Assembly: GCF_030166655.1 (NCBI RefSeq)
Contig: NZ_CP126446.1
Coordinates: forward strand, 3,782,001-3,846,000
Direction: 5' to 3'
DNA: 64,000 bases
Source: Pontibacillus chungwhensis
GTDB taxonomy: Bacteria; Bacillota; Bacilli; Bacillales; BH030062
In this document: piece after piece, positions 8,830 through 43,740 of the stretch
How the letters are laid out: every line of letters starts with the position of its first letter
How positions within the stretch are numbered: the first letter of the stretch is position 1
Notes under the pieces: model-generated
Told to the model about the DNA's origin: nothing
The model's input: only the letters and a program-made list of their open reading frames with translations
Database searches by the model: none
Translations under genes and position numbers: made by a program

Positions 8830-8995
8830 TGGTTTTCTAGACGTTTGAGAGGAGAATATGGACGTGGTGTAGCTCTTTCTCGACGTTAGATTCGGGTTTC
8901 TCGTCGTGCGGATGTTTTTTCTAGACGTAAGGGACGGTTTTCTTGACGTGCGTGGCCTCGTTCTAGATGTCAGAGTTCATTTTCTCGACGTTCAC
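8830..8995. repeat. 21-bp-period array (TTTCTMGACGT family), eight monomers
   Basis: Eight consecutive monomers of 21 bp can be laid end to end. Each carries a T-rich start and a core like TTTCTAGACGT, TTTCTCGACGT or TTCTTGACGT, followed by about 9 variable bases. No ribosome-binding site or credible reading frame is present. Confidence 0.88.
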
Positions 8996-9007
8996 CCTGC
9001 CCACTAA

Positions 9008-9105
9008 AGTCAAAAGTATTTTAATACAGTAAAGGATAGCAGGGTGTCAGACACCCTGCTATCCTTTAAAGCAACACCGCGTGTCAGACACGCTTCACTC
9101 TACTA
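9008..9105. repeat. 37-bp family repeat in fully palindromic form, plus a second copy
   Basis: Positions 9031-9067 form a perfect inverted repeat: 18-bp arms (AAAGGATAGCAGGGTGTC and its complement) around a single central A, 37 bp in all. A second GTGTCAGACAC core follows at 9081-9091, with flanks ACCGC and GCTTCA that do not match as well. Confidence 0.9.
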
Positions 9106-9111
9106 AAGTAA

Positions 9112-9141
9112 AAGGAACAGGCCGCGGGCGGCCTGTTCCTT
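9112..9141 (-). terminator. Terminator of the RND efflux operon
   Basis: The arms AAGGAACAGGCCGC and GCGGCCTGTTCCTT are perfectly complementary over 14 bp with a 2-base centre. They lie 6 bases past the transporter stop codon, with short T tracts on both sides, so it may stop transcription from either side. Confidence 0.85.
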
Positions 9142-9147
9142 CCTTTT

Positions 9148-12100
9148 TTATGATTCTGTTTCGGTTTTGGTTTGTTTTTTGTTGCCTCGTTGGAAGAGGC
9201 GGACGATTTTCTTGGATAGGTCGTCGAAATACGTGTAGACAACCGGGATGAGTAAGAGCGTGAAGAAGCTTGAGACGGTGAGACCAAAGATAATGGTGAT
9301 CGCCATCGGCTGCTGGGCTTCTGCGCCTTCTCCTAGTCCTAAGGCTAGTGGAATCATTCCGAGTACGGTTGTGAGTGTGGTCATTAAGATCGGGCGAAGG
9401 CGACTTGGTCCCGCTTCTAGAATCGCTTCGTAGCGATCGACGCCTTTTCGTCTGACGATGTTAATGTAATCCACGAGCACAATCGCGTTGTTTACAACGA
9501 TCCCGGCGAGCATGATGACCCCGATGATAGCTGGTACACTAATCGGCTTCCCTGTAATGAATAGGCCGCCAAGTACGCCAATAATTGTAGCTGGCATCGA
9601 GAACATGATGACAAATGGATACAGGAAGTTCTCAAACTGCACGGCCATTACGGCGTAGACAAGGAAGATCGAGAAGATCAACGCTAGTGCCAGATCTCCA
9701 AAGGAATCAGCCATGTCCTCTGCCTGTCCCCCTATTGAATAGGAATAGCCTTCTGGGAAGTTAATGCGATCGAGTTCGGATCGAATATCTTCTGTAATGC
9801 TTCCAAGGTCGCGGTTTACAATGTCGCTTGTGACGTTGACTTGCTTTTGCTGATTCTCACGAAGCAATGTCGATGGTCCCTGGACTTGTTCGAGCTCAGC
9901 GACGGTTGCGAGCGGGATCATGTCGCCCGTCTGGGTTTGGATATTCATCGATTCTAAATCGCTAATCGTGCGACGTTCATCATCTGGAAGAATGATGCGC
10001 ACATCGATTTCCTCCCCAGCTTCACGGAAACGGGTGGCCGTTTGACCGCTAAAGCCAAGCTGCACCTGGCTCATCACCTGCTGATAGGAAAGGCCGTACT
10101 GCGCGGCTTTGTCCCGGTCGACGTTGACCTGGATTTCAGGGCGCCCTTCTGAAGCTGATGATTCAGGATTGTGAACGCCGTCGATCTGGTCAATCGTCCA
10201 GGTGACTTGATCGGCAAGTTCCCGTAAGACTTCATATTCTTCACCGTTTAGCTGAATCTGAACTGGAGCCCCTGTCCCAAGACCCGCTGCCATTTCACTA
10301 ACGGTGATTTCAGCCCCAACTATATCACGGAGATCTTCATCCATCTCTTGCATCACAGTGGATGTTGTTTTGTCCCGTTCTTCTGGTGGGACGAGCTGTA
10401 TCGTGTAGGTGGCTTCATTGGCTGTTGATGAGAATCCTTCGAAGCCTCCTCCACCGATGCTTAAGTAATTCGATGAAATGATCTCTTCGTATGGTTCTAA
10501 CTTTTGGTCGATTTGTTTTGTAATCGATTCTGTTCCTTCTAAGGACGTTCCGGATGGTGCTTCAACGGTTACCTCGATTTGGCCCTGGTCAGATGGTGGA
10601 ATGAATTCCGTACCAAGGAGAGGTGCGAGAAATCCGCTTCCGACGATTGCGAGAATCGTAACGATGACCGTAATGAGACGATGTCTTAGCACCCCGCGAA
10701 GCATCGAGCGATAGCCGTTGTTGATTTTGTCCATGAAACGGTCGAACCAGTAGCGGCGTCCGTTGTCCTTCATCGCTTTCGTTAAGAGCTTCGATGACAG
10801 CATTGGAATGAGCGTGATCGAGACGATTAAGGATGCGACGAGTGAGAAGGAAACGGTTAACGCGAGTGGCGTGAACAGTTCTGATGCGATTCCTTCAACG
10901 AATACGATCGGCAAGAATACCACGAGCGTTGTCGTCGTTGAGGCAATAACGGCAGGTGCGAGTTCTGATGCCCCTTGTTTGGCCGCTTCTTTGAGCGAGT
11001 ATCCGTTCTGCCTGTAGGCGACGATATTTTCTAGTATGACGATCGAGCTATCGACCATCATTCCGATTCCTAAAGCGAGTCCGCCCATCGTGAGGACGTT
11101 CAACGTGTTGCCAGTAAAGTACATAAGCGTAAATGTTGAGATGATCGCAATCGGAATGGAAATCCCAATAACGATCGTTGCCCGTACACTCTTCAGGAAT
11201 AAGAGCAGAATGAGTACGGAGAACAGACCACCGAGAATGATGTTTTGTACAACAGAGCGAATCGATTGTTTGATAAAGGTCGAGGTATCAAACACGATGT
11301 CCATGCTCACATCACTAGGTAAATCCTCCTCCACGTCATCCTTAGCCGCTGCTACGTTGTTGGCTACTTCTACTGTGTTCCCGTCTGATTTTTTCAAAAC
11401 GGATAAGACAACAGAGGGCTGGCCGTTGACGCGGGAGATCGTGGTCACGTCTTTGAACGTGTCTTTAACCGTTGTCACGTCCTCCAGTTCTAGCTGAGCT
11501 CCAGTTGGAGAGGTGATGATCGTTTCTTTCACATCTTCAATCGTTTCGAACTCTCCCTGAATGCGAACCTGCAGGTCTTGGTCCCCTTTTTCAAGCACGC
11601 CTGCTGACGTGGACTGGTTGGCTGCGTTAATAGCCTGCACGAGAGTCTGAGCGTTTAAGCCGTATTGCGCCATTCTCGCACGGTCGATCTGCACTTGCAC
11701 CTCCCGGGAGCGGCCCCCTTCGATGCTGACAGATCCGACACCCCCCTGCCGTTCAAAATAGGGAACGATGTTATCTTCAGCGATTCCTTGCAGACTTGAA
11801 GCATCTTTACCAGATAAGCCCACCCACATGACTGGAATTTGCTGTGGATCAAAGCGTAATATGCTCGGGTCCGCAGCATCTTCTGGCAGGAGCCCTTTAA
11901 TCTGGTCGACTTTTTCCCGGACGTCGAGAAGAGCGTTATCTAAGTTCGTCCCATTCTCAAACATCAGAATCACGAGGGATGCGCCAGGCTGAGACTGGGA
12001 TTGCACGGTGTTAATGCCCTCAATGGAACTGACAGCCGATTCGACTGGACGGCTGACGAGTTTCTCCACTTCCTGCGGGGCAGCATCCGGATATTGTGTC

Positions 12101-12243
12101 GACACGACGGCAATAGGTAGATCGATCTCAGGATAAAGGTCGATCGTCAGGTTTCGTAGTGAAACGAAGCCAAGAGCGACGATCGCAAGGACGATCATAA
12201 AGACGCCGACGGGTCGTTTAACGGAGGATTCGACGAGTTTCAC
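9148..12243 (-). CDS. RND-family efflux transporter (HAE1/AcrB type, SwrC/YerP-like)
   Basis: This is a proton-driven multidrug or lipophilic-compound exporter of the inner membrane, 1031 residues. The usual RND plan is visible twice: a first transmembrane helix ([14 protein letters not shown]), a large extracytoplasmic loop, then a six-helix bundle, repeated in the second half. Conserved stretches include [16 protein letters not shown] (paired acidic residues of the proton relay), [17 protein letters not shown] and [15 protein letters not shown]. The start is GTG, overlapping the adaptor stop by one base (TAGTG), so translation is coupled. In B. subtilis the relative SwrC (YerP) confers surfactin resistance and is next to a long TetR regulator, as here; substrate identity is inference. 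Confidence 0.93.
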
Positions 12244-13424
12244 TAGTCTACCTCCTTCATGATGCGGATCTTGTTGTCATCGGACAGAGTGAGCTGCCCT
12301 TTCGTTACGACTTGATCTCCTTCCGTCACGTCGCCTGTAATCGCCGTAAGGTCAGACTGAGCCCGAACGACTTCTACAGCTGTTTTCACCGCACGTTCCT
12401 CTTCAATGATGTACACGTACGTTTCTTCATTTTCTTCTACTACTGCAGAAGTTGGGACCAAAATTTTATCGGCGACGGTCATTTCAGGTAGCTGAAGTGT
12501 GGCCATCATGCCTGGTTTGATCTTGGCATCTGCATTTGTGACGGTTGCCTCAACCGGGTACAAGCCACTGTCGTTTGTAATGGATGAGATGTAGGTCACC
12601 TTCGAGGTTACGTCTTCATCTAGTGAACTCATGAAAGCCGGAATCTCTTGATCTTTTTTAAATAGAGAAAGTTCATCGGCTGTTACGGAAACTTGTAAGG
12701 TGATCGGGTTCAGCGCTACAATCGTCGCAAATGGTTGCTGACCGGACACCATATCCCCTACTTCGCCGTTCACGGACGTGACTTCGCCTGATATGGTCGC
12801 TACAATGGCCGCGTTACTTAGCTGACCTCTGGTTGAGTCGAGTTGCGCCTGAGCCTGATCCACCTGGAGCTGAGCCTGTTCGACGCTAATCTGTGCACTA
12901 TCATACTGCGCTTCTGCCTGGTCGACGGCACGCTCTGCTTGGCTTACGGCTTGTTTGGCGTTTTCTTTTGCAGGGCCCATGAGCTTGTCTTCCTGCTCCT
13001 TAGCGTCATTTAATTGTTCACGCGCGTCACGAAGCGATTCTTCAGCGGCGTCACGCTGACTTCTTGCCGCTTCGAGCTGCTTTTGGGCAGACTGGACGGA
13101 AATCTTCTGGACCTCAATCTGGTCATTTACATTGGAAGCACTGACTCGGCCAATGACGTCACCTTTTTGAACGGTATCTCCTTTCGATACGTTCACCTCC
13201 ACCAGTTCGCCTGTTGATTTCGGCAGGATCGGTGCATTCTTGCTCGGCATGGCCCGTCCAAACACTTCACGCTCAACGACGAGGTCGCCTTTACTTACTT
13301 GCGCCACTTCTACGGGCGTCACTTGTTCCACTTCTGACTGTGTGCCTTCTGTTGAATCATCAGAGCATGCTCCTAACACTAGGGATAGGGTCAGCATGGC
13401 TCCGGCTAATACCTTCTTGTTCAT
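12243..13424 (-). CDS. RND periplasmic-adaptor-type subunit, lipoprotein (membrane fusion protein)
   Basis: This membrane-fusion protein would couple to the downstream RND pump. A lipoprotein signal ends at LGAC with Cys20. Then follow a lipoyl/biotinyl half-motif (TGELVEVNVSKGDTVQKGDVIG), a long alpha-helical hairpin rich in Gln/Ala/Glu (about 105-200), the second lipoyl half (GEVTSVNGEVGDMVSG) and a beta-barrel C-terminal part. The 393-residue length is normal. It begins 27 bases after the tetR stop and overlaps the pump gene, so the order is tetR-adaptor-pump in one operon. In a Gram-positive it is anchored to the outer face of the membrane. Confidence 0.92.
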   Translation of the reverse strand: MNKKVLAGAMLTLSLVLGACSDDSTEGTQSEVEQVTPVEVAQVSKGDLVVEREVFGRAMPSKNAPILPKSTGELVEVNVSKGDTVQKGDVIGRVSASNVNDQIEVQKISVQSAQKQLEAARSQRDAAEESLRDAREQLNDAKEQEDKLMGPAKENAKQAVSQAERAVDQAEAQYDSAQISVEQAQLQVDQAQAQLDSTRGQLSNAAIVATISGEVTSVNGEVGDMVSGQQPFATIVALNPITLQVSVTADELSLFKKDQEIPAFMSSLDEDVTSKVTYISSITNDSGLYPVEATVTNADAKIKPGMMATLQLPEMTVADKILVPTSAVVEENEETYVYIIEEERAVKTAVEVVRAQSDLTAITGDVTEGDQVVTKGQLTLSDDNKIRIMKEVD

Positions 13425-13451
13425 TCTTCTCGTACTCCCCTCAGTTGTCTC

Positions 13452-14330
13452 TTACAATAAGGAAATGTTCATACGGTCTGCAATGTCCTGGCAGTCTTGT
13501 TCCATTTCCGGCAGATCTTTAAAGTGAGCAAGCATTCCCTGAATCATTACCGTTTCAGGCTTCTCCTTCTTCACTTCATTCTCTATAATCTCTAAAGCAT
13601 GCGTCAGTTCTTCGATGCGATTCTTATGTAGGGAAAGGGTCTTTATTTTCTCTTTCATCGACTCTAGCTGCCCCAGAATACTCTCATCTTCCTCAGGCAG
13701 ATCAAGCCCCATGGAGATCGACTCCACCTGTTCTTTCGTGATAAGCGGATCATCTGATTCTTTCATTAGTCCAGTTATCGCATCATCCAATCGTCTAACG
13801 ATAAAATCGGCTAAACGTTTGGCATCAAGAGGCAACTGATCAATGACGAGCCACTTAAAATAGCTCTCCATCATTCCTTCTAATAGAATGCTTGCGTCAA
13901 CGATCTTAGGCGTAAGCGCTTCCCCGTAAATATTGAGGAGGTTCTCATTACTCCACCTGAAGTTTTGCTTGCGCATCTCCATCATAAAGCTATTGGCTTC
14001 TGATTTAATATCGACGTTATCGCGCATATGCATAATGATAAATTCTTTATTATTTTGAAAAGCTTCTATATAGACTTGAATCTGGCGGGCTAATGACTCC
14101 TTCGGCGGCAGCGCTTGTTTCCGAACTTCCTCTACTCGCTCGACAAGGTCATTGTAGTAGTATTGGTGAATGTTTAACGTCAGGTCTTCTTTTGAAGAGA
14201 AATGCAGGTAAAAAGCGCCCTTCGAGACCCCACTTTGGTCGGCAATTTCTTGTATGGATGTGGAATGGAACCCTTTCGTTGCAAATAGCTTCATCCCGGT
14301 TTCAATGATGCGTTGTTTCTTCTCATTCAT
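13452..14330 (-). CDS. TetR/AcrR-family transcriptional regulator of the efflux operon (YerO-like)
   Basis: The N-terminal helix-turn-helix is clear: KGFHSTSIQEIADQSGVSKG, then AFYLHFSSKEDL (residues about 20-50). The ligand domain is long, giving 292 residues against about 190-200 for typical TetR proteins; B. subtilis YerO, beside the SwrC gene, is similarly long. The extension (about 200-292) is charged and helical, with a coiled-coil-like run around 215-265. It is the first gene of the efflux operon and has a palindrome at its own transcription start, so it likely represses itself and the pump. The inducer is unknown. Confidence 0.9.
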   Translation of the reverse strand: MNEKKQRIIETGMKLFATKGFHSTSIQEIADQSGVSKGAFYLHFSSKEDLTLNIHQYYYNDLVERVEEVRKQALPPKESLARQIQVYIEAFQNNKEFIIMHMRDNVDIKSEANSFMMEMRKQNFRWSNENLLNIYGEALTPKIVDASILLEGMMESYFKWLVIDQLPLDAKRLADFIVRRLDDAITGLMKESDDPLITKEQVESISMGLDLPEEDESILGQLESMKEKIKTLSLHKNRIEELTHALEIIENEVKKEKPETVMIQGMLAHFKDLPEMEQDCQDIADRMNISLL

Positions 14331-14395
14331 AAAGTCTTCATCCTCTCTCCCTCTAGCATATCATCCCACAGCTGGGTAAGATAGAGGACTGGGCA

Positions 14396-14448
14396 TGACT
14401 GGTCAGTCAAGCCATGGATACTATACTATATTGGGTGTCCCTTTACAA
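14396..14448 (-). promoter_or_regulatory. Promoter of the tetR-efflux operon with TetR-type operator
   Basis: Minus strand: -35 TTGTAA at 14448-14443, a 17-bp spacer, -10 TATAGT at 14425-14420. Immediately downstream, where transcription would start, is the inverted repeat TGACTG-GT-CAGTCA at 14396-14409, typical of TetR operators. A bound repressor there would block initiation or early elongation. Confidence 0.8.
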
Positions 14449-14533
14449 TAGCTTCCACCTCTTAAATGTGTATAGAGCGTGTCTTTTTTAGTATGGACGA
14501 GGTTGGGTGGTTTCATAAACTTATGCGGAGAGA

Positions 14534-14714
14534 ATGTTTCCATTAACGTTATTATGAGCTTAAGGTGAACCGGGAAATCACTCCCTTTCCGCGGCGAGCT
14601 GGGGAGCCTCCTCAATCGCTACGCGCTTTCCGGGGTCTCCCCTAAGCTCCCAATGCCGCAGGAGTCTCGCGATTTCCCGGTTCACCTTTACCATAATTGG
14701 AGTAATGGAAACAT
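14534..14714. repeat. Palindromic intergenic element, copy 2 of 4 (inverted orientation)
   Basis: The core arms AAGGTGAACCGGGAAATC and GATTTCCCGGTTCACCTT are perfectly complementary over 18 bp. A second, outer pair ATGTTTCCATTA/TAATGGAAACAT encloses them. The inner conserved core (GAGCCTCCTC, GGGGTCTCC, GCAGGAGTCTCGC) is the reverse complement of that in the other copies. No gene is seen in the 757-bp gap between tetR and comK (14331-15087). Confidence 0.88.
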
Positions 14715-14853
14715 GCTATAGGCCCCTGGAAGATGTATAAAACACACCCAGCTTATGTTGGGGGCCGTTCGCAAAACCCATAGCATGCCCTGTCAAAAGT
14801 GGTGAACGGACCTCACCTAATCACCTCTAATCCTCTCCTCACATATAGCGCGG

Positions 14854-15031
14854 GTTTCCGTTCCACCCAATTCGGCGAAGGTGGCCCTGGAAATTGCGAG
14901 ACTCCTGCGGGAGAAAGAGGTCGACGAGACCCCGGAGGGCACGAACTTTGCCCGAGGAGGCTCGACAGCTCGCCCGCGGAAAGCGAGTGATTTCCAGGGC
15001 CACCTTACTCCCCAATAAAGCAAACGGAAAC
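14854..15031. repeat. Palindromic intergenic element, copy 3 of 4
   Basis: The arms AAGGTGGCCCTGGAAAT (14878-14894) and ATTTCCAGGGCCACCTT (14990-15006) are perfectly complementary over 17 bp. An outer pair, GTTTCCGTT and AACGGAAAC, lies beyond them. The inner core carries GCGAGACTCCTGCGGG, GAGACCCCG, GAGGAGGCTCG and CCGCGGAAAGCGAGT. Confidence 0.9.
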
Positions 15032-15051
15032 ATTTTCTATTTGTGAGCAAA

Positions 15052-15083
15052 AAGAAGAGCCTGCTTGGGAGCAGACTCTTCTT
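15052..15083 (-). terminator. Terminator of comK
   Basis: The arms AAGAAGAGCCTGCT and AGCAGACTCTTCTT pair over 14 positions with one wobble, around a TGGG loop. The minus strand then has five T. The stem starts 4 bases past the comK stop. Confidence 0.88.
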
Positions 15084-15087
15084 ACAT

Positions 15088-15567: not shown

Positions 15568-15717
15568 CGCTTGCCTCCTTATAGAATATATTTACATTTA
15601 TGTGATTCTATTATACCGGAATAACACTTGAATTTTGAGAATTATTTGTATATTTCTTCAAATTTTTATTTGAAGTAGTATTTTAGAACTATTTTCCGCT
15701 CGAAATTGCTATATATC

Positions 15718-15726
15718 TGATATACT
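15718..15726 (+). promoter_or_regulatory. Extended -10 promoter for the small protein gene
   Basis: TGATATACT matches TGnTATAAT-type extended -10 elements; no good -35 is seen. A start near 15733 gives a short leader containing the Shine-Dalgarno. Confidence 0.45.
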
Positions 15727-15759
15727 GGGGGTCACCATATATTGGGAGGTCATGCTGAC

Positions 15760-15942: not shown

Positions 15943-15964
15943 GTGTATTCTCAAGGCGAAGCAA

Positions 15965-15993
15965 AAACCCACTACCTTTATGGTAGTGGGTTT
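15965..15993. terminator. Bidirectional terminator between convergent small genes
   Basis: The perfect arms AAACCCACTACC and GGTAGTGGGTTT have A and T tracts on both sides. It serves the small plus-strand gene and the minus-strand lipoprotein gene, whose stop codon is only 6 bases away. Confidence 0.9.
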
Positions 15994-15998
15994 TTCCA

Positions 15999-16444: not shown

Positions 16445-17030
16445 GGGAGGATGTATTTGGGCGGGGTTCGGACACTCTGGAGCTGGTCTGGATGCTTTTG
16501 ACTGGCGTCCGGGCACTTCGGGCGAGCGTCTCGTCACTTTCTCGCTCGTTCGGACACTTTCGCGCGGCGTCCGGGCACTTCGGGCGAGCGTCTCGTCACT
16601 TTCTCGCTCGTTCGGACACTTTTGCGCGGCGTCCGGGCACTTCGGGCGGGCGTCTTGTCACTTTCGCGCTCGTTCGGACGCTTTTGAGCGGCGTCAGGGC
16701 ACTTCGGGCGGGCGTCTCGTCACTTTCGCGCTCGTTCGGACGCTTTTGAGCGGCGTCCGGGCACTTCGGGCAGGCGTCTCGTCACTTTCGCGCTCGTTCG
16801 GATGCTTTTGAGTGGCGTCCGGGCACTTCGCCAGGACCTCCCGTCACTTTCCTCCCTCGTTCGGACGCTTTTGAGCGGCGTCCGGGCACTTCGGGCGGGC
16901 GTCTCGTCACTTTCGCGCTCGTTCGGATGCTTTTGCGCGGCGTCCGGGCACTTCGCCAGGACCTCCCGTCACTCTCCTCCCTCGTTCCGACGCTTTTGAG
17001 CGACGTTCGGGCACTTCCCACGTGCCTCCA
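16445..17030. repeat. GC-rich tandem array with about 62-bp period (three 21-bp submonomers)
   Basis: The phrase CGTCCGGGCACTTCG recurs at 16506, 16568, 16630, 16692, 16754, 16816, 16879 and 16941, with a weaker copy at 17004. The spacings are 62 or 63 bp. Each period divides into three related segments beginning CGTCCGGGCACTT, CGTCTCGTCACTT and GTTCGGACGCTTT. Reading frames across it shift between copies because 62 is not a multiple of three, so it is not coding. It fills the gap between fabZ and the lipoprotein gene. Confidence 0.92.
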
Positions 17031-17037
17031 AACAAAA

Positions 17038-17083: not shown

Positions 17084-17521
17084 TTAATCTTCTTTATCGC
17101 CTAGGGCGAACATGATTTCAGCTTCACAGACGGTTTCGCCTTCAGCTGTTTTGGCTGTGGCTTTTCCTTTTCCGATGCTGGCTTTAGCACGGATGATTTC
17201 GACTTCTAGAATTAGTGTGTCGCCTGGGCGCACTTGGCGCTTAAAGCGGCACTTATCGATGCCTGTGAAGAAGGCAAGACGACCCTGGTTTTCTTCTTTT
17301 TTCAGCATGGCTACGGCGCCTACTTGGGCAAGAGCTTCTACGATCAACACGCCTGGCATGACGTTGTAGCTCGGGAAGTGGCCCTGGAAGAAAGGTTCGT
17401 TTGCGGTTACGTTCTTTTTCCCGACAGCGCGTTTACCTTCTTCTAGTTCTGTGATTTGATCAACTAGAAGGAATGGGTAGCGGTGCGGGATAATGTCTTT
17501 AATTTGTTCGATATCTAGCAT
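17084..17521 (-). CDS. fabZ: 3-hydroxyacyl-[acyl-carrier-protein] dehydratase FabZ
   Basis: FabZ dehydrates beta-hydroxyacyl-ACP to trans-2-enoyl-ACP in type II fatty acid synthesis. The 145-residue hot-dog protein has PHRYPF at 12-17 and the catalytic pair His48 (GHFP) and Glu62 ([12 protein letters not shown]). A longer frame to 17575 would add 18 poorly conserved residues; the start at 17521 has AGGAGG upstream and begins [17 protein letters not shown] as in the family. The location downstream of mbl-flhO-flhP matches B. subtilis (ywpB). Confidence 0.96.
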
Positions 17522-17535
17522 AGATAGGGAGCCTC

Positions 17536-17865
17536 CTATTCGGTTTTCGTTACGATATCTATAATATGTTGCCACGTATCAAGTTTCAAGGCATCGGTTG
17601 GATTTCCGTCTCCAATCACGCCATATCCGATCATAACGCCACCAACGAGAGCGAGTGCACAGATGACCAGAACGACAATGATCCGTAACCAGATCGGAAA
17701 GACACGACGACGATAACGTTCAGGTTTCTTTTCTTTATCCTGCTTCTTAACTTTGTCGGTTTCTTTCGAGGCTTGGCTCTTTGTTTTCTCTTGATTCTGT
17801 TGTTCTTTCTGAATTTCTCGTCGTTCAGTGCGACTGGTTGGCTCTGATTGTTTCTTTTCTGGCAT
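17536..17865 (-). CDS. EpuA-type small membrane protein (often mis-labelled RNA polymerase subunit beta)
   Basis: A 109-residue protein with a charged, Lys/Glu/Gln-rich cytoplasmic half (to about 58), one transmembrane helix ([20 protein letters not shown]) and a short extracellular end containing [10 protein letters not shown]. This is the EpuA/DUF family plan (VFPIWLRI entering the helix, then [10 protein letters not shown]). Databases often call it DNA-directed RNA polymerase subunit beta, which the sequence does not support. AAGGAG lies 9 bases before the ATG at 17865; the upstream ATG at 17886 has no Shine-Dalgarno. It lies between flhP and fabZ. Confidence 0.8.
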
Positions 17866-21035: not shown

Positions 21036-21309
21036 ACCACTCGCCTCCTGATGATTGGATGTCAAAGGTGTGAAATGAGACAAGGCACTGGGCTATAAGT
21101 ATATGTTTAGTATGCAGCTTCTAGGATGCAGGCTCTTCTATGTCCGGTAAGGTAAACCTCTAAAAACTCTCACCTCAAACCTTTCTATAACTCGGTTTGT
21201 AACAGAATATGTTTCACAAAAACCCTTTATGCTTAAAACATCACAACGGACAAGGACTTTAGCCACATTTCTTTCACAAACTGAGGCATTGCCCCTTTTA
21301 TGCGGTGAA

Positions 21310-21425
21310 GGGACAGTGCGTGTCTGACACCCTTTAGTGATGTAAAGGGATGACGCGTGTCTAACACCCTGCACTTCTCTACCGTAGTGAAGGGTGTCTG
21401 GCACGCGTTCGTTCTCTAAAGCGTT
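21310..21425. repeat. 37-bp GTGTCTGACAC family repeats, about three units
   Basis: Cores GTGTCTGACAC (21320), GTGTCTAACAC (21357) and GTGTCTGGCAC (21394) are spaced about 37 bp apart, with CTTTAGTGATGTAAAGG between the first two. They lie in the gap of 447 bp between spoIIID and the AimR-like gene. A 98-codon open frame across them lacks a Shine-Dalgarno and is not called. Confidence 0.85.
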
Positions 21426-21440
21426 ACAGAGCATAAATAG

Positions 21441-22654: not shown

Positions 22655-22785
22655 CGCACACCTTTAGGCTTTACAGCAATGAAGCGTGTCAGACACCCTT
22701 TAGTTCTTCACCGCACTAGCGGGTGTCTGGCACGCTTTAACTCTCCACCGCACTAGCGGGTGTCTGACACGCTTTAGTACGGGAA
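22655..22785. repeat. 37-bp GTGTCTGACAC family repeats, three to four units
   Basis: Cores GTGTCAGACAC, GTGTCTGGCAC and GTGTCTGACAC follow one another at about 37-bp intervals, each followed by CTTTAG or CTTTAA and a CCGCACTAGCGG-like spacer. They fill the gap between the AimR-like gene and spoIIQ. Confidence 0.88.
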
Positions 22786-25029: not shown

Positions 25030-25395
25030 CTGAATTACGACTTTTGACGTCTAGATTCATTGGACTCACGTCTAGTTTCTGATTGATGACGACTAAATTA
25101 CTTAAGGTCATGTCTAGATTCTGGCTAACGACGGCTAAATTCATTGAGATCATGTCTATTTCCTGGCTGAGCACAACTAAATTCCTTAGGAGCACGGCTA
25201 GATTTTAGCTAGCTACGGCTATATTCATTGAGATCATGTCTAGATCTTGGCTGATAACGGCTAAATTCCTTAGGAGCACGGCTAGATTCTGGCTCGCCAC
25301 AGCTAAATTCCTTAAGAGCACGGCTAGATTTTGGCTAGCCACAGCTAAATTCCTTAAGAGCACGGACAGATTCGTTCAGACCATGTCCAGATCGT
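25030..25395. repeat. 21-bp-period array (ACGTCTAGA family), about 17 monomers
   Basis: About 17 monomers of 21 bp run end to end, each starting with a variant of ACGTCTAGATT, ATGTCTAGATT or ACGGCTAAATT followed by about 10 variable bases. The core is the reverse complement of that in the 8.8- and 36.2-kb arrays. Later units alternate (ACGGCTAGATTYTGGCT with ACAGCTAAATTCCTTAA), giving a 42-bp sub-period. It fills most of the 615-bp gap between spoIID and murA. Confidence 0.92.
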
Positions 25396-25453
25396 GTCTG
25401 TACCTCCCTGCACCATTACATAACACCTTATTTAGCTTCGATTGAACATAAAA

Positions 25454-35530: not shown

Positions 35531-35532
35531 GT

Positions 35533-36184: not shown

Positions 36185-36415
36185 TGTTAGGTCACAGACG
36201 TTCTCGACGCTAGACCTTGCCTTCTCGATGTCGAAGTCCTTTTTCTAGACGTGCGAACCACTTTTCTAGACGTCGGGACTTGTTTTCTCGATGTTGAAAC
36301 TCATTTTTTCGATGTCGTGACGGGTTTTCTCGCCGTTAACCCCCGTTTTCTTGACGTGCAGATAGGCTTTCAGGACGTCGCTTCCCACTTTCTCGACGTC
36401 CTCCCTATAATCAAT
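36185..36415. repeat. 21-bp-period array (TTTTCTAGACGT family), at least ten monomers
   Basis: Eight monomers of exactly 21 bp lie at about 36241-36408, each opening with TTTTCTAGACGT, TTTTCTCGATGT, TTTTCTTGACGT or similar. Degenerate units (GTTCTCGACGCTAGAC, CTTCTCGATGTCG) precede them. The core and orientation match the 8.8-kb array. A frame through it reads as a seven-residue repeat (FLDVxxx) but has no ribosome-binding site. Confidence 0.9.
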
Positions 36416-36439
36416 CCGCCCCCTCCCCTACCCTTCTAT

Positions 36440-38620
36440 TTAAGGAAAAGTCTGGCCAATGGTAATCGGGGTTTCGAAGGACTGTGTTACTCCACCTTGC
36501 TTCACTGTTACAACAGCCAGGTAGGTTCCATCCTCGCCCACCTCTTTTTTATCTAGTGTACCTTCTACCATTCCTCGAGCTACATCTTCATTTTTAAATA
36601 GAGGTCTAATGTAGCGGAGCGTTTCCGGATCATATAAATCGACTTCTAGCAGATCGGCTGCAAGTGGTAAGTAGAGTTTGTATTGATACTCCTCTTCTGA
36701 GAATGGTTTGAGCGAGAATTCAAGACCCATGGCTCGTGGGAACTCGGCTTCTTTTGTAAGAGCTAAGTATGGAAGCTGATAGGTTTTATGATCATCTTTT
36801 AACTCAAGCCACCCTTGTATAAATGTTTCTTCGTTCCGCAGATTATGCTGGTGAATCGATAAAGAGATCGGCACCGTCTTCTTCTCCCCTGGTTGAAGCG
36901 AGAAGCTCATCGGGAGCTGAAAGCGGATGCCCCTTTCTTGCTTAGGTATGGTGAAGCGGTAATCTTGGGGCTCGTCGCTTGAATTCTCTACAGTAATCTT
37001 AGTCTCCCGCGTTTCTGTGTCATCAAGTATTCGACCAAAAGCTAAACGACCATTGTAGAGAATGGACGATGGCTCAGCAGCTGCGAGTGGTTCAATGCGT
37101 CCCATTCCCTGGGCGATCGGCTCTACATTTTCTCCGTTTGCTTCCTTTAATACGGTAGCTGTTGAAAGGAGTGCAGCTTTTAACTTCTCAGGTCCCCAAT
37201 CAGGGTGGGCTTCTTTTAATAAGGCTAACGCTCCTGCGACATGGGGGGCTGCCATGCTCGTTCCTTGAAGGTCCTTATATCCTCCTGGAACTGTACTGGT
37301 AATGGCGACGCCCGGGGCAACGATGTCAGGCTTGATGTCCCAGTTCCACGTCACAGGGCCTTTTGAACTAAAGCTTGCAATTGTATCTTTATTCACTTGA
37401 AACTTTGTTTCGAGCCAATTGTTCGTGTCAGCTATTTGTTGTTTCAGCCACTGTCCCTGTTCTTTTGTTAAGGCTGCAACCGGAATGGTTACGTCTCCTT
37501 CAATGGCACCCTGGAACTCTCCATCTTCGTTGTTATATATAAGAGCTGCTACTGCACCGGCTTTTTCAGCCATCATGGCTTTCTCCGTAAACGTCACCTC
37601 TCCCCGCTCTATTAACGCAATTTTGCCTTGGACGTTTTGAGTGATTTGTTTACCGAGACCAGCTGAAGCAACCGTGTAAGTTTTTCGAAGATCCCATGGT
37701 TCAGAGCCCATCATGGGCATAACAGGGAGCGCTTTTCGCGAAAGGGCATCATAAAGATACGGAATTTGGAGCGGTGGCGTCGAAGCACCGACAGCAATAG
37801 ATTTTATAGCTGTTGCCGGAGATCCCACCGTCCACTCCCCTGGCCCGGAGTTTCCGTTTGAGATGACCATCGCGACTCCCATATCTACAGCTTGGTTGAC
37901 CGCGATACTCGTTGGCCAGTCGGGCCCGTTTACAGAGCTACCTAGAGAAAGATTGATAATGTCCATCCCGTCTTCGACCGCCTGCTCGATCGCAGCTATG
38001 ACCTGAACAGAAGAGCCGACTCCACCAGGACCTAGCGCGCGGTATCCGTATAGCTCCGCATCTGGCGCCATGCCTTTTAGTTTGCCGTCCGCTGCTATAA
38101 TTCCTGCCACATGGGAGCCATGAAGAGTAGGTTCCCCTTGGGTTTCGAGCGTTTCCATCGGATCCTCATCAAGGTCGACGACATCATACCCGCCTTTAAA
38201 ATTCTTCTTCAAATCAGGATGGTTGTAGTCAATACCGGTATCGATCACGCCGACCTTCACTCCTTTACCAGTATAGGGAGTGGATCTGAATGGATCCTTA
38301 TTTTCTAAGACAAAGGGAACACTTTCATTAATATGCACCTGGTAGGTTTGCGAGGGAAAAGACTGCTCTACGAAGTCGGACTTTTCTACCCGTTCTAAAT
38401 CCCTTACCGATCCACGAAGAGCTAGCCCTTGCAAAAGCGTGTCATACACATGGATCACTTCAACGCGAGGGTGGTACTTCTCAATATAGGACTTCCATTT
38501 ATGTGCATCATCTTCCACTTCAATGATAATCGACTGTAGCTCCCGCTTCCCCATCGCCTGCTGGCCAGGACTGCCTAATAAGAAGCTAAAGAGTACCATA
38601 ACGACAACGATTTTCTTCAA
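36440..38620 (-). CDS. Secreted subtilisin-like serine protease (S8, Vpr-like) with PA domain
   Basis: An extracellular protease of about 726 residues. From the N-terminus: a signal peptide (KKIVVVMVLFSFLLGSPGQQAMG), an inhibitor-I9-like propeptide, the catalytic Asp in GVIDTGIDYNHPDL, His in LHGSHVAGIIAADG, a protease-associated (PA) insertion of about 120 residues, the catalytic Ser in LQGTSMAAPHVAGA, and an Fn3-like C-terminal domain. The layout is that of B. subtilis Vpr. I favour a TTG start at 38620, which has AAAGGGTGG upstream and gives a clean signal peptide; the in-frame ATG at 38671 lacks a Shine-Dalgarno. Confidence 0.9.
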   Translation of the reverse strand: MKKIVVVMVLFSFLLGSPGQQAMGKRELQSIIIEVEDDAHKWKSYIEKYHPRVEVIHVYDTLLQGLALRGSVRDLERVEKSDFVEQSFPSQTYQVHINESVPFVLENKDPFRSTPYTGKGVKVGVIDTGIDYNHPDLKKNFKGGYDVVDLDEDPMETLETQGEPTLHGSHVAGIIAADGKLKGMAPDAELYGYRALGPGGVGSSVQVIAAIEQAVEDGMDIINLSLGSSVNGPDWPTSIAVNQAVDMGVAMVISNGNSGPGEWTVGSPATAIKSIAVGASTPPLQIPYLYDALSRKALPVMPMMGSEPWDLRKTYTVASAGLGKQITQNVQGKIALIERGEVTFTEKAMMAEKAGAVAALIYNNEDGEFQGAIEGDVTIPVAALTKEQGQWLKQQIADTNNWLETKFQVNKDTIASFSSKGPVTWNWDIKPDIVAPGVAITSTVPGGYKDLQGTSMAAPHVAGALALLKEAHPDWGPEKLKAALLSTATVLKEANGENVEPIAQGMGRIEPLAAAEPSSILYNGRLAFGRILDDTETRETKITVENSSDEPQDYRFTIPKQERGIRFQLPMSFSLQPGEKKTVPISLSIHQHNLRNEETFIQGWLELKDDHKTYQLPYLALTKEAEFPRAMGLEFSLKPFSEEEYQYKLYLPLAADLLEVDLYDPETLRYIRPLFKNEDVARGMVEGTLDKKEVGEDGTYLAVVTVKQGGVTQSFETPITIGQTFP

Positions 38621-38694
38621 ACAAAACCACCACCCTTTTCCTCTATCTTCTGAAAGAACCCTCCACTTCATACATAGAAACTACACTTTAGTGC

Positions 38695-38925
38695 TTTGCA
38701 GAAATGGTGGGTGTCTGACACGCTTTAGCGCTGTAGAGGATCAGTGGGTGTCTGGCACGCTTTAGTGCTGTAGAGGATCAGTGGGTGTCTGGCACGCTTT
38801 AGTGCTGTAGAGGGTCAGCGGGTGTCTGGCACGCTTTAGCGCTGTAGAGGGTCAGTGGGTGTCTGACACACTTTAGCGCTGTAGAGGGTCAGCGGGTGTC
38901 TGGCACGCTTTAGTTGGGTAAAGAA
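38695..38925. repeat. 37-bp tandem repeat, six copies
   Basis: Six head-to-tail units of 37 bp, each CTTTAGYGCTGTAGAGG then TCAGYGGGTGTCTGGCACG with few changes, plus a partial seventh (CTTTAGTTGGGTAAAG). The core alternates between GTGTCTGACAC and GTGTCTGGCAC. It fills the gap between the protease and mnaA. Confidence 0.95.
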
Positions 38926-38961
38926 AAAAGCAAGGGACGCGGGGTCCTCTTGCTTTTATCA

Positions 38962-40116
38962 TTAGTCGTCTTTGGTTGTGAAGGGTTGTGGTTTTTCTTC
39001 CTGGTAGTTGAAGAAATAGCGCATGGCTTCTGCGATTCGGGCGGATGCTTGGCCGTCTCCGTATGGGTTGGAGGCTTTCGCCATTGCATCGTACGAAAGG
39101 TCGTCCGATAGCAGTTCGTTTGCCATGGAGAAGATATTCTCTTCGTCTGTTCCGGCAAGTTTTAATGTACCTGCTTTAATTCCTTCTGGGCGCTCGGTTG
39201 TGTCACGAAGGACAAGAACCGGTACCCCAAGGGACGGCGCTTCTTCTTGAACTCCCCCACTATCTGTCATGATCAGGTGAGATCGTGACGCGAAGTTGTG
39301 GAAGTCGATAACATCAAGTGGCTCAATTAAGTGAATACGGTCGTCCCTGCCAAGAATTTCGTTGGCTGCTTCCTGGACCGCAGGGTTTAAGTGAACCGGG
39401 TAAACCACTTCAACGTCTTCATGTGTTTCCACTAAGCGTTTGATGGCTTTGAACATGCCACGCATCTTGTCGCCTAAGTTTTCACGACGGTGTGCAGTAA
39501 CGAGAACAAGACGTTTGTCTTTCCCTTTTTCTAAAATCTCGTGTGCATAATCGTCTTTAACTGTTGTCTTAAGCGCATCAATCGCCGTATTTCCTGTGAC
39601 AAAAATATTGTCCTCAGGTTTATTCTCATCCAATAAATTTTGCTTGGACTGATTGGTTGGTGTGAAATGAAGATCAGCCATTACGCCTGTAAGCTGACGG
39701 TTCATTTCTTCCGGGAACGGAGAGTACTTATTCCATGTGCGCAGTCCCGCTTCTACGTGCCCAACTGGGATCTGGTTGTAGTAAGCTGCAAGACTTGCTG
39801 CAAATGTTGTTGTTGTATCTCCGTGAACAAGCACAACGTCTGGCTTTGTTTCCTTCATGACTCCATCAAGTCCTTCAAGAGCACGCGTTGTGATCTCTGC
39901 TAAGGTTTGACGGGATTTCATAATGTTTAAATCAAAGTCAGGTGTAATGCCGAAGATCCCCATTACTTGGTCCAGCATTTCACGGTGTTGAGCTGTCACG
40001 GTAACAATTGGTTCAAATTGGTCTGAACGTTTTTGGAGTTCCAAGACGAGAGGGGCCATCTTAATGGCTTCAGGTCTTGTCCCAAAAATCGTCATGACTT
40101 TTATTCGTTGGCTCAT
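38962..40116 (-). CDS. mnaA: UDP-N-acetylglucosamine 2-epimerase MnaA/WecB
   Basis: A non-hydrolysing epimerase that interconverts UDP-GlcNAc and UDP-ManNAc, feeding TagA and the ManNAc dehydrogenase at the start of the window. It has 384 residues from ATG 40116 (GGAGTG 6 bases upstream). Motifs: TIFGTRPEAIKMAPL, VHGDTTTTFAASLAAYY, HVEAGLRTWNKYSPFPEE, TAHRRENLG and the active-site TDSGGVQEEAPSLG. It is 22 bases downstream of upp on the same strand, as in B. subtilis. Confidence 0.96.
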   Translation of the reverse strand: MSQRIKVMTIFGTRPEAIKMAPLVLELQKRSDQFEPIVTVTAQHREMLDQVMGIFGITPDFDLNIMKSRQTLAEITTRALEGLDGVMKETKPDVVLVHGDTTTTFAASLAAYYNQIPVGHVEAGLRTWNKYSPFPEEMNRQLTGVMADLHFTPTNQSKQNLLDENKPEDNIFVTGNTAIDALKTTVKDDYAHEILEKGKDKRLVLVTAHRRENLGDKMRGMFKAIKRLVETHEDVEVVYPVHLNPAVQEAANEILGRDDRIHLIEPLDVIDFHNFASRSHLIMTDSGGVQEEAPSLGVPVLVLRDTTERPEGIKAGTLKLAGTDEENIFSMANELLSDDLSYDAMAKASNPYGDGQASARIAEAMRYFFNYQEEKPQPFTTKDD

Positions 40117-40138
40117 GTCGTTCACTCCAAACAAAACT

Positions 40139-40768
40139 TTATTTCGTTCCGAACAGACGGTCTCCTGCGTCTCCTAAACCTGGTACGATATAACCTTTTT
40201 CATTTAGTTTCTCGTCCATTGCCGCAAGATAGATATCTACATCAGGGTGTGCTGCCTGAATTTCTTCGACACCTTCAGGAGCGCCAACCAGGCACATTAA
40301 GCGGATTTGCTTCGCGCCGCGCTTCTTAAGTGAGTGGATGGCTTCGATAGCAGAACCACCTGTTGCAAGCATTGGGTCCACAACGATCATTTCACGTTCT
40401 TGAACGTCGCTTGGAAGTTTCACATAGTATTCAACTGGCTTAAGCGTTTCAGGATCACGATAAAGTCCAACGTGACCTACTTTCGCTGCTGGAATTAAGT
40501 CTAAAATTCCATCTACCATACCTAGTCCTGCGCGAAGAATAGGGATAATCGCAATCTTCTTACCTGAAATCACTTGGGATTTCGCTTCTGAAACGGGTGT
40601 TTGAATCGTTACTTCTTCAAGTGGTAAATCACGTGTGATTTCAAACGCCATTAAAGCTGCTACTTCATCTACAAGTTCACGGAATTCCTTCGTTCCTGTT
40701 TCTGTCTTCCGTATGTACGTTAGTTTGTGCTGAATAAGAGGATGATCAAATACATAAACCTTACCCAT
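40139..40768 (-). CDS. upp: Uracil phosphoribosyltransferase
   Basis: This enzyme salvages uracil to UMP with PRPP. The 209 residues match the family length. Visible are the start [32 protein letters not shown], the PRPP loop [16 protein letters not shown], and the uracil-binding C-terminal [16 protein letters not shown]. It has its own promoter. Confidence 0.97.
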
Positions 40769-40809
40769 GAGCCGATCTCTCCTTTAATTGAATAGTTTGC
40801 ATCCTTAAA

Positions 40810-40838
40810 ATTGTACTGAATTCTGGGTTGTGTTTCAA
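40810..40838 (-). promoter_or_regulatory. Promoter of upp-mnaA
   Basis: Minus strand: -35 TTGAAA at 40838-40833, 17-bp spacer, -10 TACAAT at 40815-40810. The predicted start near 40803 gives a leader of about 35 bases; no room for a PyrR-type attenuator. Confidence 0.75.
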
Positions 40839-41029
40839 GATGCATGAAACAATCTCTACACAAAATATTCTAAGGTCCTTTTGGCTTTTGTGACGGTTTT
40901 GTGAATTTTTTTCTTCTATTATATAGAGCCTTACATATTCTTACTTAGTTTACCACAAAAAAGCCCGTTTCATGAAAAAGCTAGACAGACTAATTTTTAA
41001 TGATGAGTGAGACATAGGAGGCGCTTTAC

Positions 41030-41165
41030 TACGGTACAGTATTGATGGGTGTCAGACACCCTTTACTTCGCTACTGCGCTGATGCGTGTCTGACACCCTT
41101 CACTTCGCCACCGCACTGACGGGTGTCTGACACCCTTCATCCCGCTACTGTACTGAAGGGTGTGG
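41030..41165. repeat. 37-bp GTGTCTGACAC family repeats, four units
   Basis: Cores GTGTCAGACAC, GTGTCTGACAC and GTGTCTGACAC at 37-bp spacing, with a partial fourth (GGGTGTGG). Units here read CTTTACTTCGCTACTGCGCT. The rest of the 445-bp gap between hemAT and upp shows nothing but the upp promoter. Confidence 0.88.
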
Positions 41166-41177
41166 ATACTGAAAAAA

Positions 41178-41202
41178 ACTCCAACTCATAAGGAGTTGGA
41201 GT
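41178..41202 (-). terminator. Terminator of hemAT
   Basis: The perfect 10-bp arms ACTCCAACTC and GAGTTGGAGT surround a 5-base loop and are followed on the minus strand by TTTTTT. Confidence 0.9.
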
Positions 41203-41213
41203 GTGGGTTCAGT

Positions 41214-42512
41214 TTATTCTTCTGTTTTGTTTAATAGTTTTTGCGCGAGGCCGGACAGGTTGTCGGTGGTGCCATGGATATCTTGGATGGCATCGACGAT
41301 CAGGTCAAGGTCTTCTTTATTTCGGTTGAACATGTCTACGTATTGGTTCATTTCCATCTTCACTGTTGCTAGTCCATTCGTGACTTGTTTCATATCTGTT
41401 TGGGATTGCTTCGTTGAAGCGTTCATTTCCTGCATGGATACTTGCAAGGTCTGAATGTTTTCGTTGCTTTCATTTGTAATTGAATTGATTTGATTACTCA
41501 TTTGCTTGGAGTTTTCTGCTAGTTTTCGCACTTCTTCTGCTACAACAGCGAATCCTTTTCCGCTTTCTCCGGCACGAGCCGCTTCAATGGATGCGTTTAA
41601 AGCCAGTAGATTCGTTTGGTCCGCGATGCCTTCAATTTGGTTTGTGATAGATGTAATTTGTTGAGACAGATCATCTAGTTTTTCCATGGTTGCCATGCTG
41701 TTATTAAACTGTTCAAGCACCGTTTGGAAAGAGTTCAGCATTTCATTTACTTTTTGATCATTCATATCTGTTAAAGAAATTAGATTCTGACTGCTCTTTT
41801 GCGTATTCTCTGTGTCTTTCCGAATCCGGTCCGCTTTCTCAGACGTTTCGTTCATGGACGCATCTGTCTGTTCTACAGAAGCTGCTACTTCCTGACTAAT
41901 CGCCACTAATTCCCGGCGAAGCATCTCGTTCCGATCATTGGCTTCAATTGCTTGTGATGCTTTCACAGCTAGGTAATGATCTACTACAAGCTGACTATCC
42001 AGATTCATTATATTCGTTACCGCCACCAAAATATCAGAGAGCTTGTGGGGTTGATCCTGATAAGATTCCACCACTTTTGGAATCAGTAAGTTGCTAAGAG
42101 CGGAATATGTAGCAAGGAACCAGGCAACCGGAAGCTCCACACCACCATGGGTGCGTCCAATTCGCTTACGCATGTTCATATACGCTTCATCAATATTTCC
42201 GGAAAATGCACTATCAAAATACTCGACAAATACTTGCTTCAGTTTGTCATGAGAACTATGATTCGTTGCAATTTCATTTAGTCGAGGGTGAGCATACAAG
42301 TGCTCCAATACTTTATCCAGCAGTTGATCGCTCAATGCTAACACAGCTGGTTTCACTTCTTTCACTGTAGCAAGCTGTTTATCCGTTAAACTCATATAAC
42401 TTAAACGTCCGGTAAGATCCTGGTCATCGACTGTTACAGGCGTTCCCATATCTGCATACGCACTCGCTGCTTCAAATCGGGCCGTTGGTCTCTTTTTTGT
42501 AAAAATACTCAT
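41214..42512 (-). CDS. hemAT: Haem-based aerotactic transducer HemAT
   Basis: A soluble oxygen-sensing chemoreceptor. The N-terminal globin domain (about 30-190) has the proximal haem histidine at residue 122 in [18 protein letters not shown] helical linker follows, then the methyl-accepting signalling domain, whose tip reads [20 protein letters not shown] then [15 protein letters not shown]. At 432 residues it matches B. subtilis HemAT. There are no transmembrane segments. It is monocistronic with a sigma-D promoter and its own terminator. Confidence 0.95.
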
Positions 42513-42540
42513 CGTAATTCCCCCTTTATTCCTTCTTCTT

Positions 42541-42567
42541 ATATCGGCTTTAGGTGGAGGAAACTTA
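42541..42567 (-). promoter_or_regulatory. Sigma-D (motility) promoter of hemAT
   Basis: Minus strand: GCCGATAT at 42548-42541 is a perfect sigma-D -10, and TAAG at 42567-42564 is one mismatch from TAAA at the canonical 15-base gap. It starts transcription about 20 bases upstream of the hemAT ATG (GGGGGA Shine-Dalgarno). Confidence 0.8.
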
Positions 42568-42689
42568 ATCTTGCTAGCGCATTTGATAAGTTGCGGTTCA
42601 GATTAGGATGAGGAGGTGACCATGGACAGACTTTGACCTTTTGTTTCGCTAGAAATTTCTTTATTGCATTCTTGTTTTCTTGGTTGCTT

Positions 42690-43740
42690 GGATTTCTTTC
42701 TTTATTACTCTTGAGACTTTGTGCATTCTGGGTTTGGTTTAGACACTGGGGCGGGGGTTTCTGCATTCCGCTCACGGTTTCGACACTCAAACTTTGGTTT
42801 CATCACTCTATCTCAGTTTTCTTCACTACTCCAACTCCTTTCTTCATAACCCCGACTTCTTTCTTCACTCCAAAACCACTTTAGACATTACAGAACCTCT
42901 ATCTTCACTCCACATCTAGTTTAAACACTCTGACCAAGCTTTCTGCATTCCGCTCTCCCTTTCGACACTCAAACCCCGGTTTCTTCACTCCATCCCGGCT
43001 TTCTTCATTACTCGAACTCCTTTCTTCATAACCCCAACCTCTTTCTACACTTCAAAACCACTATAGACATTCCAGAACCTCTATCTACACTCCACATTCG
43101 GTTTAAACACTCCGACCACGCTTTCTGCATTCCGTTCTCCCTTTCAACACTCAAACCCCGGTTTCTTCACTCCACCCTGGCTTTCTTCACTACTCCAACT
43201 TCTTTCTTCATACCCCCAACCTCTTTCTACATTTCAAAACCACTTTAGACATTCCAGAACCTCTAACTTCACTCCGCATTCGGTTTAAACACTCCGGCAA
43301 CACTTTCTGCATTCCGCTCTCCCTTTCGACACTCAAACCCCAGTTTCTTCACTCCACCCCGGCTTTCTTCACTACTCCAACTTCTTTCTTCATAACCCCA
43401 ACCTCTTTCTACATTTCAAAACCACTTTAGACATTCCAGAACCTCTATCTACACTCCACATCCGGTTGAAACACTCCGGCAACGCTTTCTGCATTTCGAT
43501 CCTACTTTCGACACTCAAACCCCAGTTTCTTCACTCCACCCCGGCTTTCTACACTACTCGAACTCCTTTCTTCATAACCCCAACCTCTTTCTACATTCCA
43601 AACCCTCTTTATACATTCTAGAACCACTATCTACACTCCACTTCTGGTTTAAACATTCTGACCACGCTTTCTGCACTCCGATCCCACTTTCGACACTCAA
43701 TCCCCGTTTTTCTACACTCCGCCCCCGCCCACACCACTCA
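42690..43740. repeat. Large array with exact 182-bp period built from 20-21-bp submonomers
   Basis: The phrase CTGCATTCCG (with variants) occurs at 42761, 42943, 43125, 43307, 43489 and 43671, each exactly 182 bp apart. Each period holds nine submonomers of 19-21 bp of the form CTTTCTnCAYTCC plus variable bases (for example CTTTCGACACTCAAACC, TTTAAACACTCCGG, CTTTCTACATTTC). One strand is almost free of G, the other of C. No promoter, Shine-Dalgarno or persistent frame is present. It occupies most of the 1.3-kb gap between hemAT and glyA. Confidence 0.95.

Follow-up and report, generated by a model that had tools for sequence, protein, structure and literature searches.

Polar arrays of 20–21-bp units at gene ends of a Pontibacillus chromosome, with core sequences that differ between sister species

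What are the short tandem arrays that lie between genes of Pontibacillus, a halophilic relative of Bacillus, and what do they share when their sequences look unrelated? The question is raised by a 64-kb stretch (G000:C1:3782001-3846000, hereafter the window) of a 4.17-Mb Pontibacillus genome (G000), in which five arrays, A1 to A5, were located with Tandem Repeats Finder and in the raw sequence, and their periodicity was measured with our own autocorrelation scan. The original prediction had described them as intergenic arrays with a common step of about 21 bp and a common T-rich stretch followed by an nGACryT-like core. The arrays were found to belong to a class of 20–21-bp repeats that is spread over the chromosome, is placed at gene ends and is biased in direction with respect to replication; its cores change less than its spacers and differ between sister species at the same sites. 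The five arrays of the window are as follows.

A1, 8830..9000, plus strand: family alpha, 21-bp step, core TTTCTmGACGT; flanked by a plus-strand gene (7094-8680) and a minus-strand RND permease gene (9148-12243).
A2, 16460..17018, plus strand: family delta, 62-bp higher-order unit (21+21+20), CACTT-type core; downstream of fabZ (17084-17575, minus strand).
A3, 25047..25400, minus strand: 21-bp step with a 42/84-bp higher-order repeat, minus-strand core ATCTAGCCGT; between murA and spoIID.
A4, 36190..36402, plus strand: family alpha, 21-bp step, core TTTCTmGACGT with free spacers; downstream of a subtilisin-like protease gene (36440-38671, minus strand).
A5, 42740..43730, plus strand: family gamma, mainly 20-bp step, core TTTCTwCACTC; downstream of glyA (43808-45085, minus strand).

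All five arrays were present at the predicted places. The autocorrelation peaks of A1, A3 and A4 were multiples of 21, those of A2 were 62, 124, 125 and 21, and those of A5 were 20 and 40. The predicted step of about 21 bp was thus correct, as were a single size class and a common core layout, but A5, which also carries a 182-bp higher-order repeat made of nine units, is a 20-bp array. The cores quoted in the prediction were likewise present; A1 and A4 share one core and the core of A3 is related to it, but those of A2 and A5 represent distinct families. All arrays lie between the main genes, with a doubtful 53-aa open reading frame (ORF) called within A3, and no transposase was matched among the ten neighbouring proteins, three of which had no match at all; both had been predicted.

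Alignment of the units by eye, together with DNA search, distinguished four core families in G000, which are written here on the pyrimidine-rich strand.

Alpha: core TTTCTmGACGT, step 21 bp.
Beta: core ACTTGAGCCGC, step 20 bp.
Gamma: core TTTCTwCACTC, step 20 bp.
Delta: core TCCTGACACTT, step 21 bp.

Counted up to 70 bp, the core-to-core steps were 21 bp in 119 of 127 cases in alpha, with none of 20 or 22 bp, and in 74 of 93 in delta (20 bp in 5). Steps of 20 bp prevailed in gamma (87 of 151, and 29 of 21 bp) and in beta (115 of 220, with 54 of 21 bp and 9 of 19 bp). Between arrays, the spacers were 0.33–0.38 identical vs. 0.74–0.83 for the cores, the latter values being inflated because the units were selected by their match to the core; four alpha arrays whose units were phase-locked without core selection displayed the same contrast. 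The cores are asymmetric and so have an orientation, and they are non-palindromic as judged without a systematic dyad search. Three of the 40 catalogued loci lay inside a longer called ORF, at least some of these ORFs being doubtful.

An excess of 21-bp periodicity elsewhere in the genome, which the prediction implied, was found at 20 and 21 bp and their multiples. The sample, 40% of the genome (1.664 Mb), consisted of 80 stretches, each 20 kb long, in addition to the window. It contained 803 intergenic regions with a length of 90 bp or more, and 74 of these exceeded the 99.5% quantile of resampled sequence, compared with about 4 expected. Their periods were 20–21 bp or a multiple in 24, 37 bp in 25, 52 bp in 14 and scattered in 11, and thus 63 of the 74 belonged to three period classes. 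Five of the 24 regions with the 20–21-bp period were the window arrays and 19 lay in the remaining 1.6 Mb examined, which makes the window a hot spot. Two of the 24 were weak (z 5.2 and 5.0, below the null maximum of 5.4), and no core was visible by eye in one of these (2.723 Mb). Outside the window, 800 kb were examined for autocorrelation of intergenic DNA, which was raised at lags 42, 21, 20, 63, 40 and 60 (z 2.1–4.0), and also at lag 18 (z 2.9) and at short lags. Beyond this genome, 58 spoIID loci of Bacilli and Clostridia, including Pontibacillus, were scanned with a crude ORF mask, and 40 intergenic regions passed z 5.5: 16 with periods of 20–21 or 40–42, 8 with 50–52, 3 with 37 and 13 with other periods. 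The array cores inspected at these loci vary from species to species.

No catalogued array of G000 lay in 1.55–2.40 Mb. The trend with distance from the origin was not significant (rho -0.19, p 0.10; p 0.29 in G005, a second single-contig genome), and array number correlated with G+C content (rho 0.35, p 0.0015); an exclusion of the 20–21-bp arrays from the terminus is suggestive only. All three repeat classes were sparse near the terminus in the sample of G000, in parallel with the lower G+C content there, and the origin-to-terminus trend of the 37- and 52-nt classes was similar to that of the 20–21-bp class.

The copies of higher-order repeats were compared site by site in six arrays from two species, and the cores had changed less than the spacers in all six, two of them weakly. 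The substitution rate in the core vs. other sites was 0.048 vs. 0.117 in A5 for a wide core and 0.034 vs. 0.115 for a narrow core tried afterwards, 0.114 vs. 0.179 in A3, 0.042 vs. 0.096 in A2 after alignment, 0.099 vs. 0.359 in locus L083, 0.269 vs. 0.364 in the delta locus L082, and 0.076 vs. 0.289 in the P. salipaludis array at the A4 site. An ungapped first pass on A2 gave no difference between core and other sites because the copies were out of register. One-sided rank tests gave p values from 8e-6 to 0.04. Rotations of the core mask equalled the real core in 1 of 181 cases in A5 (5 of 181 for the wide core), 1 of 41 in L083, 3 of 41 in L082 and 1 of 41 in the P. salipaludis array.

The arrays favour convergent gene ends over divergent ones. 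Among 37 arrays with both neighbours known, 16 lay between convergent genes, vs. 55 of 549 in a baseline set of intergenic regions 150 bp or longer (p 7e-7), and one lay between divergent genes, vs. 135 of 549 (p 9e-4). Between co-directional genes, 16 of 20 arrays began within 110 bp past the end of the upstream gene. Some of the ORFs called within or next to arrays are questionable; should the 91-aa ORF at 366,198 be spurious, one of the arrays counted as convergent, which is also an exception in direction, becomes co-directional. A crude finder placed a terminator between gene end and array at 30 of 55 facing gene ends, and hence it is not claimed that arrays follow terminators.

The enrichment between convergent genes would suit bent or gyrase-favoured DNA, in which the two-turn phasing bends or wraps the double helix where supercoils gather between converging genes, and a bent scaffold had been proposed at the outset. 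Mean predicted curvature against resampled sequence, computed with wedge values for 39 of the 40 arrays, was z 2.7 in alpha, 2.1 in beta, 1.0 in gamma and 2.8 in delta. This increase is moderate and uneven, as z did not exceed 1.0 in 11 of 39 arrays, and a 21-bp period by itself adds some curvature to any sequence, so bending was rejected as the common principle. Bending alone accounts for neither the constraint on a core of about 11 bp nor, as described below, the polarity and the different core versions of sister species. We consider this explanation very unlikely.

The GC skew of G000 switches at about 2.1 Mb; a match to the replication terminator protein (RTP) family, the single RTP-like gene, lies near the switch (G000:C1 2071401), as does one in the other genome (G005:C1 1935151). 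At 37 of 40 catalogued loci (binomial p 2e-8), the strand of the pyrimidine-rich core went with the replichore, being minus on the right and plus on the left. By family, this was so at 12 of 14 alpha, 10 of 11 beta, 8 of 8 gamma and 7 of 7 delta loci. These 40 strands came from DNA search (28), from the queries themselves (4) and from the core as called by eye (8). With strands from DNA search alone and the queries excluded, 28 of 29 loci agreed with the replichore, one of the 29, a match of 28 bp at 1129 kb, being absent from the catalogue. In convergent regions, which are neutral with respect to transcription, 14 of 16 arrays followed the replichore, and so did all three arrays between co-directional genes opposing the fork and the one between divergent genes. 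The direction in G000 is linked more to replication than to local transcription, as a bias and not a law. G005, from a second species, uses other cores (CTATCCAGAA, CGCCTGAA and GAGAATCGCAC). In its sample, all eight arrays with a partner agreed with the replichore by eye, and three of 11, without a partner, were assigned no direction. DNA search added one agreeing locus and two disagreeing ones (963 and 3246 kb), giving 9 of 11, which is not significant alone; the direction of the 963-kb array matches the local genes and not the replichore. When one of the three arrays of the CGCCTG type was used as query, it matched itself only; these three had been grouped by eye.

The strand and the place of the arrays also bear on an explanation at the RNA level, in which unstructured pyrimidine-rich sequence on the strand opposite leading-strand genes would be a Rho entry site, or the arrays would be sources of small RNA. 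The location past gene ends suits it, and so does the composition of beta and gamma, where C is abundant on that strand (0.36), G is scarce (0.18 and 0.12) and YC content is raised. The bias is weak in alpha and absent in delta (G 0.31 vs. C 0.29), so that the composition suits Rho sites in two of four families, and this reading was not favoured. Moreover, Rho requires neither a fixed step of 20–21 bp nor a fixed core, which counts against this reading. Two of ten folded 146-nt pieces were stabler than shuffles (A4 +, z -2.6; A2 +, z -3.0), but over all ten pieces folding was inconsistent (z -2.97 to +1.78); A3 - was worse than shuffles and the rest were unremarkable. There was no Rfam match within the window, and RNA structure was set aside as well. 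In favour of an RNA, the 52-nt satellites of B. coagulans are reported to be present in RNA-seq (PMC8625621). On balance, an RNA-level role appears improbable.

The closest comparison was with P. chungwhensis (G001) and P. salipaludis (G004), whose syntenic blocks shared 71–93% DNA identity with G000; SpoIID was 86% identical to both, and GlyA 99 and 98% identical, respectively. At the A5 site, both relatives had an array of the same orientation with a 20–21-bp period, but with the core TTTnGTAACTTC; no array was found at this site in the other six genomes examined. At the A4 site, G000 had the core TTTCTmGACGT and P. chungwhensis had ATTCAGGCCGT, whereas in P. salipaludis two versions, TTTCTGGCCGT and TTTGAGCCGT, alternated. 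Place, orientation and period were thus kept at both sites and the core was different. The original prediction had named different periods in related species as evidence that would speak against it; the periods of the relatives were again 20–21 bp, and it was the cores that differed. A search with an alpha array, the only family searched in relatives, gave a match in one of eight genomes of the genus, its own. The core difference at the same spot suggests a protein that changes together with its sites.

Other sites were less stable. At the A3 site, P. salipaludis had an array in the same unusual direction and P. chungwhensis had none; A1 had no counterpart in P. chungwhensis, the sole relative inspected there, and A2 none in either relative. 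The A2 site of P. chungwhensis (L250:10750-11225) held another dispersed repeat with a GGAGCGAACGGAGTGAGTGAGGAGGCTC-like stretch, and related repeats matched window positions 14528-15040 in both directions.

Such presence and absence at orthologous sites favours neutral or selfish satellites without function, of which the unit length and the alignment with fork direction are set by replication-linked copying error or single-strand insertion. The polarity with respect to replication, the species-specific turnover and the higher-order repeats within arrays are also in keeping with this explanation, and a single array can be homogenised by unequal exchange. Against it, cores changed less than spacers among copies in two species, and arrays of a family share cores and not spacers, which copying between arrays would not yield. 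In addition, the surroundings of the four Y1-transposase genes in G000, searched to a distance of about 1.5 kb, showed no 20–21-bp array. We regard selfish satellites as unlikely, though the least so of the three alternatives.

The explanation we favour, with a confidence that is evenly balanced, is that each array is a polar series of sites recognised by one or several DNA-binding proteins with sequence specificity, perhaps acting as a one-way barrier or organiser at gene ends. The strict spacing with free spacers was taken to indicate a reader of duplex DNA. A constrained core that is common to arrays with unrelated spacers and different in sister species points to a reader acting in trans rather than to copying between arrays, and the gene-end place and direction point to a polar job. 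A protein would bind each core of about 11 bp, two helical turns apart, and the bound proteins would sit side by side, probably as a filament. Most likely, the nucleoprotein would serve at gene ends as a barrier or organiser that works in one direction, limiting head-on or antisense traffic into leading-strand genes. A shift in the specificity of the protein would bring a switch of core throughout the units of an array, and in the arrays of the genome whose spacers are unrelated; this would explain a constant size with a variable sequence. The protein-binding part of the original prediction fits the strict spacing, the free spacers and the constrained core.

Several observations weigh against the protein-binding explanation. 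The constraint in A2 and A3 is weak, since the real core was equalled by 12 of 61 rotations of the mask in A2 and by 15 of 83 in A3, and the core identity between arrays is inflated in the way noted above. Steps of 20 bp would drift around a 10.5-bp helix. Three loci of G000 (A3, 366 kb and 371 kb) are exceptions to the polarity, and two of them, A3 and 366 kb, were not returned by the DNA searches (371 kb was); in G005, 2 of 11 arrays oppose the replichore. Leading strands of Firmicutes have a general purine bias, and the direction of the arrays may come partly from it; the array strand opposite the leading strand is A-poor. With four core families present in a single genome, either several proteins would be required or one that recognises its sites loosely. 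No candidate binder was found. Among 77 flanking proteins, none of the top 25 of 125 Pfam families occurred in more than four, and a common family of flanking genes was rejected.

More tentatively, and with somewhat more doubt than confidence, the arrays may form a replication-aligned satellite system, in which dozens of polar arrays at gene ends would be read by fast-evolving DNA-binding proteins and a core of about 11 bp would be switched in concert over the genome between sister species, with site, direction and two-turn spacing kept. The 20–21-nt class has been enigmatic since its description, as its size is constant, its sequence unshared and no function has been assigned to it, and the present findings turn it into testable claims. 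A co-evolving binder would be expected, the binders of sister species should have matching specificities, and the loss of an array should affect head-on traffic or chromosome layout. If true, this would be a first handle on the function of the class, a bacterial counterpart of the co-evolution of centromere satellites, and a novel way in which sequence directs the organisation of bacterial chromosomes.

The 37- and 52-bp classes and the RAYT-like genes of G000 were observed alongside these arrays.

37-bp tandem class, near-palindromic core GTGTCTGACAC, 25 periodic regions in the 1.664 Mb; in the window at 8712-8801, 21250-21440, 22686-22778, 38707-38913, 41043-41163, 53150-53300 and 57054-57211.
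52-bp class, unit with the inverted repeat AAAAGGTMACAGA...TCTGTGACCTTTT, 14 periodic regions in the sample; loci L013, L021, L044 and L049 in G000, e.g., at absolute positions 426422, 1258023 and 3642492.
Three RAYT-like Y1 proteins, L247, L248 and L249; at G000:C1 3569480, 3733718 and 3643118, respectively.

The 37-nt arrays near spoIID in P. chungwhensis and P. salipaludis keep a GTGTCTGACAC-type core, unlike the 20–21-bp arrays, and one of them sits at the site of a window array. One 52-bp region ends within about 0.2 kb of the RAYT-like gene at 3643118. Directly upstream of one RAYT-like gene there were two 37-nt cores 37 bp apart, which could be there by chance because 37-nt arrays are so common; GGGACAGG or CCTGTCCC repeats occurred near the other two. 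No 20–21-bp array was found in the 3.3-kb loci of four Y1 genes in G000. An origin of the 20–21-bp arrays from RAYT and repetitive extragenic palindromic (REP) elements was rejected, as 37-nt, 52-nt or GGGACAGG-type repeats adjoin the RAYT-like genes instead.

How do the arrays compare with known systems? The closest is a class of Bacillus tandem repeats with a constant length of 20–21 or 52 nt, a variable sequence and no assigned function, as described in PMC8161180 (Subirana and Messeguer, 2021), where repeats are detected by SATFIND from at least four repeats with 60% equal lengths. The paper describes the repeats as species-specific with short conserved signals, remarks on the two-turn spacing, and already suggests small RNA, stabilisation of the nucleoid or a protein that polymerises. 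The arrays of Pontibacillus resemble that class in unit size, non-coding site, several families per genome, species specificity, a short common signal and a 52-nt class alongside in some species; in our data, constant length, several non-coding families, a species-specific sequence (alpha query) and a short conserved core were all found. The repeat class is therefore not undescribed, as the original prediction had it. Orientation, convergent preference, core difference at orthologous sites and the 37-nt class were not reported in parts 1–3 of the five of PMC8161180, in its tables or under a term search. A search of open-access literature at the level of titles and the beginnings of abstracts named no paper on array polarity or core switching. 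What is new is the polarity, the gene-end placement, the core constraint, the core differences at orthologous sites and the class proportions in Pontibacillus.

REP elements and bacterial interspersed mosaic elements, with their RAYT proteins, are extragenic, lie near gene ends and between convergent genes, are species-specific and may form tandem arrays. The 20–21-bp arrays are like them in all these respects, but their cores are asymmetric and none of them was found beside a Y1 gene; in look, the 37- and 52-nt classes of G000 are closer to REPs. Sal-box/TTF-I terminator arrays and RTP/Ter sites bind proteins in a polar manner, near the ends of genes or to act on forks. Their way of working is the one proposed here; their sequences are different, and our arrays occupy many loci over the chromosome. 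RTP itself is an unlikely binder, as judged by match scores: one RTP-like match was found in seven of eight genomes of the genus and two in one, and the scores are nearly equal in all eight, although the cores change. In centromere satellites and the proteins that bind them, a constant unit size goes with concerted sequence turnover between sister species. The arrays of Pontibacillus are short, dispersed and number in the dozens, unlike such satellites; in constant unit size and concerted turnover between sister species, the two are alike.

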